A DNA stretch of 5,651 bases from Candidatus Micrarchaeum sp. (GTDB taxonomy: Archaea > SpSt-1190 > DYHY01), in assembly GCA_020723935.1 (NCBI GenBank), contig DYHY01000006.1:45860-51510 (forward strand), in the 5' to 3' direction. Below, piece after piece: positions 1,161 through 5,291 of the stretch. The position numbers and the translations under genes were made by a program. Every line of letters starts with the position of its first letter. The stretch's first letter is position 1. Below the pieces are notes generated by a model that saw only the letters and a list, made by a program, of their open reading frames with translations, made no database searches and had not been told where the DNA came from.

Positions 1161-1613
1161 ATGTTTCCGAAGAAGAAAGGGGGCCTCTTCAAGCCGTTCA
1201 GGGAGTACGAGGACTTCCTGTCGGTCCCCTTCGCGGCTCTCAGAAGGGAGTTCGGCTTCAGGGGCCTCGCCGGGACAAAGCCCGCTGAGGGGAACGCCCC
1301 GTCCTACCTCGCGATCTATCTTCCCGATTTCTTCCCCGACGACAAACTCGGGTATGTCGGGCTCGGGGCCGCGGGCGTGGTAATCGTGAGCCCGCTCGCC
1401 CGGCCTGAGATAGTTGGCGACGTCGTCGCGGCATCGCCGGCGGGAACGCAGATATCGTCCCAGAACATCGCCTAGGAGGCGATGGTCCACGACCAGGTCG
1501 TCCAGTCGGTCATGAACAGCTTCAACACCCACTTCGGCAGCGGATCGAGCTGCTACGACACGGGCGCCAGCGGCACTGGAAGCCCGGAGCCCAAAGACGA
1601 GGAAAGCGACTGA
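1161..1613 (+). CDS. Unrecognised protein, about 150 aa, interrupted by in-frame UAG at codon 105
   Basis: No known family recognised. The frame from 1161 encodes a Lys/Phe-rich N-terminus (FPKKKGG), a mixed segment to about 60, a short hydrophobic stretch GYVGLGAAGVVIVSPLA at 64-80 and TQISSQNIA to residue 104. Codon 105 is TAG (1473-1475). The same frame then continues for 45 codons (EAMVHDQVVQSVMN..., then a Ser/Gly/acidic tail) to TGA at 1611-1613. The downstream part has almost exclusively G or C at third positions, like the upstream part, so it looks translated. Options are UAG readthrough or recoding, a recent nonsense mutation or base-call error, or a second small gene restarting at ATG 1482 after AGGAGG (1474-1479). 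That Shine-Dalgarno is only 2 nt from the ATG, closer than usual. The start at 1161 rests on the TATA position. Confidence 0.65.
1473..1475 (+). other. In-frame UAG inside an otherwise continuous reading frame
   Basis: TAG splits the frame 1161-1613 with no shift in phase. Thirteen bases later a perfect 5-bp hairpin, ACGAC-CAG-GTCGT (1489-1501), is present. The TAG itself also forms part of an AGGAGG motif. Confidence 0.6.
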
Positions 1614-1674: not shown

Positions 1675-2523
1675 ATGGGAGGGATCTTCCAGATAAGGCC
1701 GCTATTCAGAATCATCCGCAAGGCGACCCTGCGCTACTATTTCCCCCTCCTCTACATCGGCGAGAGGCGGCGGGAGGGTGGCGAGACGATCATACGGGCG
1801 GATGCGGCGACCTCCTTCCGGACGAGGACGAACACCTCCGACAAGTACGCCGTGATGGAGGTTTTCTTCCGGAAGGAATACGGGGATCTCAAGATAGGGG
1901 AGCGCGACGTGATACTGGACATAGGCGCGAACATCGGTGCCTTCTCCGTCTACTGCGCCCAGCGGGCGAGCCTGGGCAGGGTGATCTCCTACGAGGCCCT
2001 CCCAGCCAACTTCGGGATGCTCCTGAAGAACGCGAAGCTCAACGGCCTCCCCAACATCCGGGCGAGGAACCTCGCCGTCTGGGACAGGAGCACGCGGGTG
2101 CGCCTCCCGGTTGGGGACTCTTACACCGGCGTCTCCATCTTCAGGAAGGAGAAGCGGGCGGTCGGCGTGAGGACGACGACGCTGGAGGAGATCTTCAGGA
2201 AAGAGCGCCTCTCCCGCGTCGACGTGATGAAGCTGGATGTGGAGGGGGCCGAATACGAGATAATCGCCGGGGCGCCGGCCGGCCTCCTGGAGCGGATACG
2301 CACGATCGTCCTCGAATACCACGACGGCCTAAGGCCCGGGAAGCACCGGACGGAGATCGAGGCGCGCCTGAGGGGCGCGGGCTTCGCGGTCAGGGTGAAG
2401 AACCGCTCCCTGGACAACCTGGTCTTTGACACTGGCCTGATATACGCGACAAGGCCGCGGGCGCAACAGATAAAAAAGAGGGGCTTCTCGCGCAGGGAGC
2501 CCGAGGCGGCCGGAACCAAATGA
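1675..2523 (+). CDS. FkbM-family SAM-dependent methyltransferase
   Basis: The 282-residue protein shows the class I methyltransferase signature of the FkbM family: the SAM-binding loop VILDIGANIGAF at about 79-90, the acidic end of strand 2 in YEALP (E107), NAKLNGLPNI at 119-128 and the MKLDVEGAEYEII motif at 185-197 that typifies FkbM proteins. Family members usually O-methylate sugars or natural products; the substrate here cannot be read from sequence. The C-terminus (262-282) is basic and low complexity. The N-terminal 1-30 are basic/aromatic with a short hydrophobic part (YYFPLLYIG) that could touch the membrane. The start at 1675 is supported by the TATA box at 1641-1646. The last codons overlap the next gene as ATGA (2520-2523), so the two are probably translationally coupled. 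Confidence 0.9.
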   Translation: MGGIFQIRPLFRIIRKATLRYYFPLLYIGERRREGGETIIRADAATSFRTRTNTSDKYAVMEVFFRKEYGDLKIGERDVILDIGANIGAFSVYCAQRASLGRVISYEALPANFGMLLKNAKLNGLPNIRARNLAVWDRSTRVRLPVGDSYTGVSIFRKEKRAVGVRTTTLEEIFRKERLSRVDVMKLDVEGAEYEIIAGAPAGLLERIRTIVLEYHDGLRPGKHRTEIEARLRGAGFAVRVKNRSLDNLVFDTGLIYATRPRAQQIKKRGFSRREPEAAGTK

Positions 2524-3251
2524 ACAAGACAGACGAGCTATTCCTTGCAATAATCATCGTCCTCGCGGCCCTCGCCGGCTACGAGGCGCTCTTCCCCCCA
2601 CCCGCATCTACGGCCCTGATAAGGTTCCTCGCGCTCGGCGGCTTCTTCCTCGTCTGCGCCGCTCTCTCCATCGGGCCCCTGGCAGTCCTCTCGCCGAAGA
2701 CCTTCGCGGCGATGATGGAGCCGAGGCGAGCGGTGGGGATCGCCTCCTTCGCCTTCGTCCTGTTGCACTTCCTCCTCGTCCTCTCTGTCTAGTTCGGCTG
2801 GAGGTTCGGCCTCGTTTTCAGCAGCCCCCTGCTGATAGGCGGCTTCATCGCCCTCGCGATATTCCTCCCGATAACGGTGACCTCGGCGGACTGGGCGGTG
2901 CGCGCGATGGGGAACGCCAGTTGGAAGACGCTGCAGCGGTTCGTCTATCTCGGGTTCGTCTTCTCCTTCTCGCATTTCCTGAACAAGGCGACGGGCCTCT
3001 TCACCCGGCTTGCGGACGGGACGGTGTTTGTCAACCTCGGCGAACTCTTCGCCCTGCTGATGGGGGTGGCGACGATCCTCCTGCAGGTCGTCGGGTTCTT
3101 CGTGATGAGGCAGAGAAAGGCGCTCGCGCAAGCCTCGGAAGCCGCAGCGGCCGCGGCGGCCAAGAAGGCGGCGGCCGCCCGGGCCGGAGCCGCCCCCCCG
3201 GCGCCCGCACAGGCCCTGGAGGCTCCCGCCCCGGCCGGTCAGCATAACTGA
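2520..3251 (+). CDS. Ferric-reductase-like (MsrQ/YedZ-like) membrane protein with in-frame UAG at codon 91
   Basis: The frame encodes 243 positions, with TAG at codon 91 (2790-2792). Six hydrophobic segments are visible: about 8-26, 34-58, 71-90, 103-122, 139-155 and 174-196. RRAVGIASFAFVLLHFLL (69-86) followed by a fourth helix, an ITVTSADWAV loop and TLQRFVYLGF (138-147) matches the pattern of ferric-reductase-like/MsrQ-type heme membrane proteins; H83 and H152 are candidate heme ligands. The UAG lies at the end of helix 3, and helices 4-6 continue in frame without any ATG for about 38 codons, so a separate second gene is unlikely. The C-terminus (about 197-243) is an Ala/Pro-rich, probably disordered tail. 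It overlaps the FkbM gene by 4 nt. It is either a readthrough/recoded gene or a pseudogene by one nonsense change. Family assignment is from motif memory. Confidence 0.7.
2790..2835 (+). other. In-frame UAG followed by a 7-bp hairpin
   Basis: TAG (2790-2792) interrupts the membrane protein frame. Twenty-five bases later TCAGCAG-CCCC-CTGCTGA (2818-2835) forms a perfect 7-bp stem with a 4-nt loop. The position is compatible with a readthrough-stimulating structure, but GC-rich coding DNA makes such stems common. Confidence 0.5.
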
Positions 3252-4937: not shown

Positions 4938-5291
4938 ATGGTGAAAAGAGGGCCGACGAACCCGCTGACGCTTTCGCTGATTGCAAAACTGCGCGCCACA
5001 AAGGCTCCCGTCTGGAGACGGGCCGCGGAGCTCCTGCAGAAGCTGACGAGGGACAAGGTGGAGGTGAACCTCACAGAGATAAGCCGCTTCGCAGCGGAAG
5101 GCGAGACGATCGTCGTGCCGGGCAAGGTCCTCGGCACGGGCAGCCTTTCGGCGGGGAAGCTCTCCGTCGCGTCCCACGGCATATCGCTCGCCGCGGCCGA
5201 GAAGGTCAAGAGGTCCGGCGGGAAGGTCTACACCCTCGAGGAGCTCGCCAAGCAGAACCCGGAAGGGAAGAACTTGAGGTTGTTTTCCTAA
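4938..5291 (+). CDS. rpl18e: Large-subunit ribosomal protein L18e
   Basis: The 117-residue, basic protein has the features of archaeal eL18, a relative of bacterial L15: a KRGPTNPLTLSLIAKLR start, WRRAAELL helix (26-33), VNLTEISRFA (43-52) and the VVPGKVLGTGSL core (59-70), then a GGKVYTLEELA segment near the end. Length is normal for the archaeal protein. It is a structural component of the 50S subunit. In archaea this gene commonly leads an operon with rpl13 and rps9, and here rpl13 starts one base after its stop codon (TAA at 5289-5291). The start at 4938 is supported by the TATA spacing and by family length. Confident. Confidence 0.97.
   Translation: MVKRGPTNPLTLSLIAKLRATKAPVWRRAAELLQKLTRDKVEVNLTEISRFAAEGETIVVPGKVLGTGSLSAGKLSVASHGISLAAAEKVKRSGGKVYTLEELAKQNPEGKNLRLFS
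5276..5280 (+). promoter_or_regulatory. Shine-Dalgarno GAGGT for rpl13
   Basis: GAGGT lies 12 nt before the ATG at 5293, inside the end of rpl18e. This internal operon gene has a Shine-Dalgarno motif, while several first genes with short leaders do not. Confidence 0.5.

Follow-up and report, generated by a model that had tools for sequence, protein, structure and literature searches.

We analysed a window of 5,651 nucleotides (G000:C29:45860-51510) from the genome assembly of a Candidatus Micrarchaeum sp., which comprises 1.14 Mb in 47 contigs, is 91% complete and has a G+C content of 63%; 1.04 Mb of the 1.14 Mb was read as stretches with slight overlap. The window carries a gene of the MsrQ/Ferric_reduct type that contains an in-frame TAG, flanked by two intact genes, one for an FkbM-family methyltransferase directly upstream and one for ribosomal protein L18e 1.7 kb downstream (Table 1). 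Because its ATG overlaps the FkbM stop and the L18e gene follows at this short distance, we place the MsrQ-like gene on the archaeal chromosome; a plasmid search with the MsrQ-like protein gave no match. An orphan open reading frame further upstream holds a second in-frame TAG, but none of 60 relative genomes yielded a homolog, which leaves its interruption no more than possible. At the very start of the window (positions 1-115), a unit of about 55-60 bases (caagcagagacgagcgaaatccctgcacgacgagcgtaggcgaggagtgcaggg) occurs in two tandem copies adjoining a tRNA-Leu gene.

Table 1. Features of the analysed window (positions are those of the window).
Feature	Position	Strand	Basis and remarks
Orphan ORF with second in-frame TAG (1473-1475)	1161..1613	+	Composition is coding-like before and after the TAG
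FkbM-family methyltransferase, intact	1675..2523	+	Profile match; 4-base overlap with the MsrQ-like gene
MsrQ/Ferric_reduct-like gene, 5' part	2520..2792	+	90 codons and premature TAG; ATG overlaps the FkbM stop (ATGA)
Premature in-frame TAG, codon 91	2790..2792	+	Tyr in the four closest homologs
MsrQ/Ferric_reduct-like gene, 3' part, in phase	2793..3251	+	H152, WK, R140 and Y143 intact; Ala-rich tail; terminal TGA
Ribosomal protein L18e, intact	4938..5291	+	Profile match

Translation of the frame 2520-3251 gives 90 codons, the TAG as codon 91, 152 further codons and the terminal TGA. When the TAG is read through, the Pfam domain Ferric_reduct (PF01794) matches residues 44-149, with codon 91 inside the match, at 28.5 bits, which is barely above the gathering score of 28 bits; neither half of the gene scores with this profile alone. 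The NCBIfam MsrQ model (NF003831) matches residues 10-154 of the read-through protein, and scores 27.5 bits with the 5' half alone. The protein resembles MsrQ (PRK05419, NF003831) and PF01794 in domain coverage, in its conserved pair of histidines and in its RR and WK motifs, but its NF003831 score (55.9 bits) is far below the curated cut-off of that equivalog (130 bits), the gene is interrupted by TAG, and the partner MsrP (NF003767) was not found in the 91% complete assembly. Hydropathy analysis of the read-through protein revealed five strong segments and a weaker one at about residues 139-158, a profile compatible with six helices.

The nearest homologs, at 44-51% identity, come from Micrarchaeota assemblies (L109-L111) and genome G049, and the relatives point to a probable affiliation with Micrarchaeota. 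The initial annotation had suggested reading position 91 in an alignment of close homologs. All of the four closest are uninterrupted and carry Tyr there, so the stop is absent from each of them, as expected of a pseudogene; among 86 homologs the residue at this site varies (K, D, M, L, F, Y and others). Ten residues are near-invariant in the same 86 homologs (R69, R70, G73, H83, S122, W135, K136, R140, Y143 and H152) and all are intact here, on both sides of the TAG. No homolog was seen to be split at the TAG position. The initial reading of one protein broken only by the TAG, with its downstream half in phase and H152 preserved, is thus borne out by the translation, by the domain span across the stop and by the uninterrupted homologs.

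We examined whether UAG serves as a terminator or as a sense codon in this genome. Among 225 genes whose ends agree with that of an ortholog from the same family, TAG closes 84 (37%), TGA 108 and TAA 33. Since 84 of these ortholog-matched ends are TAG, UAG is a working terminator; this use, together with the genes shared with a same-family genome, led us to reject a genome-wide reassignment of UAG. The gene for the release factor aRF1 is present, complete and uninterrupted. The 43 tRNAs detected cover nearly all codons and none has a CUA anticodon; tRNAs Trp CCA, Gln CUG and Leu GAG are absent from this set, which fits an incomplete assembly (lacking about 9% of the genome). With introns allowed for, a cloverleaf scan of 1.04 of the 1.14 Mb likewise returned no CUA tRNA, and recovered the Tyr, Phe, Lys and Met controls. 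At G000:C38:1989-2105 (L051:1501-1617) lies an intron-containing tRNA whose anticodon seems to be UAU (Ile); it takes the place of the Ile tRNA that normally has CAU. The N-terminal domain of PylS (TIGR03912) was found neither in this genome nor in 10 genomes of its class, and the C-terminal domain (TIGR02367) gave sub-threshold matches only, as it did in most of 14 control genomes. The searches for a CUA tRNA and for pylS that the initial annotation had proposed therefore came back empty. In-frame TAG followed by intact sequence recalls the pyrrolysine decoding of UAG in archaea; the present genome differs from that system in having no PylS N-domain, no CUA tRNA and UAG as a common terminator. 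A literature search returned no more than passing mentions of pseudogenes or of UAG recoding in Micrarchaeota.

The gene is not the only one in the genome with an internal stop. A coding-potential screen flagged stops with coding sequence on both sides in one frame; over the first 659 kb, this held for 54 of 297 TAG, 27 of 309 TGA and 6 of 93 TAA entries, raw counts that resembled recoding. Since many of these cases are adjacent genes that share a frame, later counts were restricted to homology-backed stops, interrupted genes being told apart from adjacent ones by Pfam, by PDB sequences and by the same-family genome G001 (0.69 Mb read). A six-frame comparison with G001 was confounded by antisense frames and was replaced by a protein-against-DNA comparison; in-frame stops in L079 were set aside because they lie within a probable rRNA region, as were frame breaks in L071 and L067, which are N gaps. 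The homology-backed set comprises 15 TAG sites in 11 genes, 4 TGA sites in 4 genes and no TAA, about 18 of these stops lying elsewhere than in the MsrQ-like gene. TAG interrupts, besides the latter, genes for glutamate dehydrogenase (GDH; two sites), a P-type ATPase (three), an ABC-2 permease (two), and NUDIX, MEDS, DoxX, EamA, PEMT-like methyltransferase, SecD and another FkbM protein; TGA interrupts genes for a sulfatase, LPG_synthase_TM, a metallopeptidase and a methyltransferase. The Pfam matches of PEMT, DoxX and EamA are below cut-offs, and the FkbM protein, the TGA methyltransferase and one ABC-2 site were assigned by alignment or inspection rather than by a Pfam span.

These genes differ in how far they are damaged. 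In the P-type ATPase, MEDS and ABC-2 genes, frame changes accompany the TAGs, and one of these genes shifts frame through an apparent 4-base duplication. On the minus strand of L074 (4.6-7.6 kb; G000:C34), the ATPase gene combines three in-frame TAGs with several frame changes, among them an apparent duplication of CTTC. The GDH gene (minus strand of L075, about 16.1-17.6 kb; G000:C36) has two in-frame TAGs and is otherwise full length, with no frame break; its motif KGGIRY reads KEGIRY, one glycine being lost. In the SecD gene (minus strand of L260, about 474-1784; G000:C31), a single TAG near the start is followed by more than 400 intact codons. The first 244 genes shared with the same-family genome (67,675 aligned amino acids) contain no genuine in-frame stop; extended to 332 shared genes (92,306 amino acids), the comparison yields one TAG in SecD and one TGA in the metallopeptidase, plus TAGs in FkbM and ATPase homologs. 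In-frame TAG is therefore very rare in conserved genes, and the few stops that they do contain include TGA.

TAG is over-represented among the homology-backed stops. With the codon usage of this genome, several mutation models predict that 54-57% of single-base nonsense changes yield TAG, against 15 of 19 sites observed (P = 0.02-0.04) or, counted by gene, 11 of 15 (P = 0.11-0.16). This is a mild excess and a lead at most, because some of the candidates were picked by eye. Shulgina and Eddy (2021; PMC8629427) described false signs of reassignment that arise from in-frame stops of pseudogenes in yeasts devoid of suppressor tRNAs. The present case is similar in that the stops lie inside recognizable domains and no suppressor tRNA gene is found, a situation that those authors attribute to pseudogenes; it differs in that the yeast signal concerned UAG or UGA as Trp, whereas here the codon use of an archaeal genome with 63% GC favours TAG.

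How, then, is the TAG at codon 91 to be explained? The initial annotation took it to be either decoded or a very recent mutation. Recency gains support from the in-phase downstream half and its preserved near-invariant residues; decoding is not supported. If UAG coded for pyrrolysine, Tyr or some other amino acid, either throughout the genome or in part, in competition with termination, a full six-helix protein would be made. The undamaged in-phase downstream halves of the MsrQ-like, GDH, DoxX, EamA, NUDIX and SecD genes and the modest surplus of TAG relative to TGA and TAA are in favour of decoding, but we consider it very unlikely given the frequent termination at UAG, the lack of CUA tRNA and PylS in the 91% complete assembly beside an intact aRF1, and the presence of TGA interruptions and frameshifts as well. 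The homolog residues at the TAG sites also vary, being Tyr in the MsrQ-like protein, Trp and approximately Leu in GDH, Arg in SecD, Glu in FkbM, and Tyr and Glu in the ATPase; they do not converge on the single residue expected if UAG were assigned to one standard amino acid. Equally improbable is a partial suppression by a tRNA encoded in the unassembled 9%, through which TAG-interrupted accessory genes would yield some full-length protein while UAG stayed a common stop. Least credible is a reading in which each half is a gene of its own, or both are expressed as two polypeptides by re-initiation: the initial annotation had judged a second independent gene improbable from the lack of any ATG for about 38 codons, and the first ATG indeed lies 38 codons past the TAG. 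A GTG, which we add to that description, occurs at 28 codons and could serve re-initiation, but both the Pfam and the NCBIfam domain cross the TAG and the close homologs are all single polypeptides.

We conclude, with a probability of roughly 90%, that the standard code holds and this TAG is simply a premature stop, caused either by a recent nonsense mutation that hit a dispensable gene of the MsrQ type or by a base error in the metagenome assembly. A Tyr codon (TAC or TAT) would become TAG in one step, by change of the third base from C or T to G, whether in the sampled cell or strain or in the assembly. The youth of this event, or its presence in the assembly alone, would account for the undamaged remainder of the gene. 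Of these two origins, the error, by which the true codon 91 would be TAC or TAT and other stops might likewise be spurious, is possible and yet the less favoured. The fragmentation of the assembly, the N runs inside its genes, the single-base nature of the event in an otherwise perfect gene and the occurrence of a stop even in SecD agree with it. Random error, however, would not be expected to spare conserved shared genes, in which stops seem far less frequent than in accessory ones (none in the first 67,675 amino acids, where about 7 would be expected, a contrast that the later sample weakens). This rarity favours real mutations in dispensable genes, while the interruption of SecD favours error or strain variation. 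Translation would end after 90 residues, past helix 3 and before helix 4 and the second heme histidine, and the product would probably be a non-functional, inert fragment. Counting against an ordinary premature stop are the TAG excess, the GDH gene with its two TAGs and no frame break, and SecD, which is no obvious gene to lose.

The finding is an ordinary one, and its main value lies in the caution that it imposes. In a GC-rich genome, where more than half of random nonsense changes produce TAG, a few clean TAG-interrupted genes in a metagenome assembly can mimic amber recoding. If UAG were nevertheless decoded here, an archaeal lineage in which no pyrrolysine system is detectable would have recoded a stop codon.
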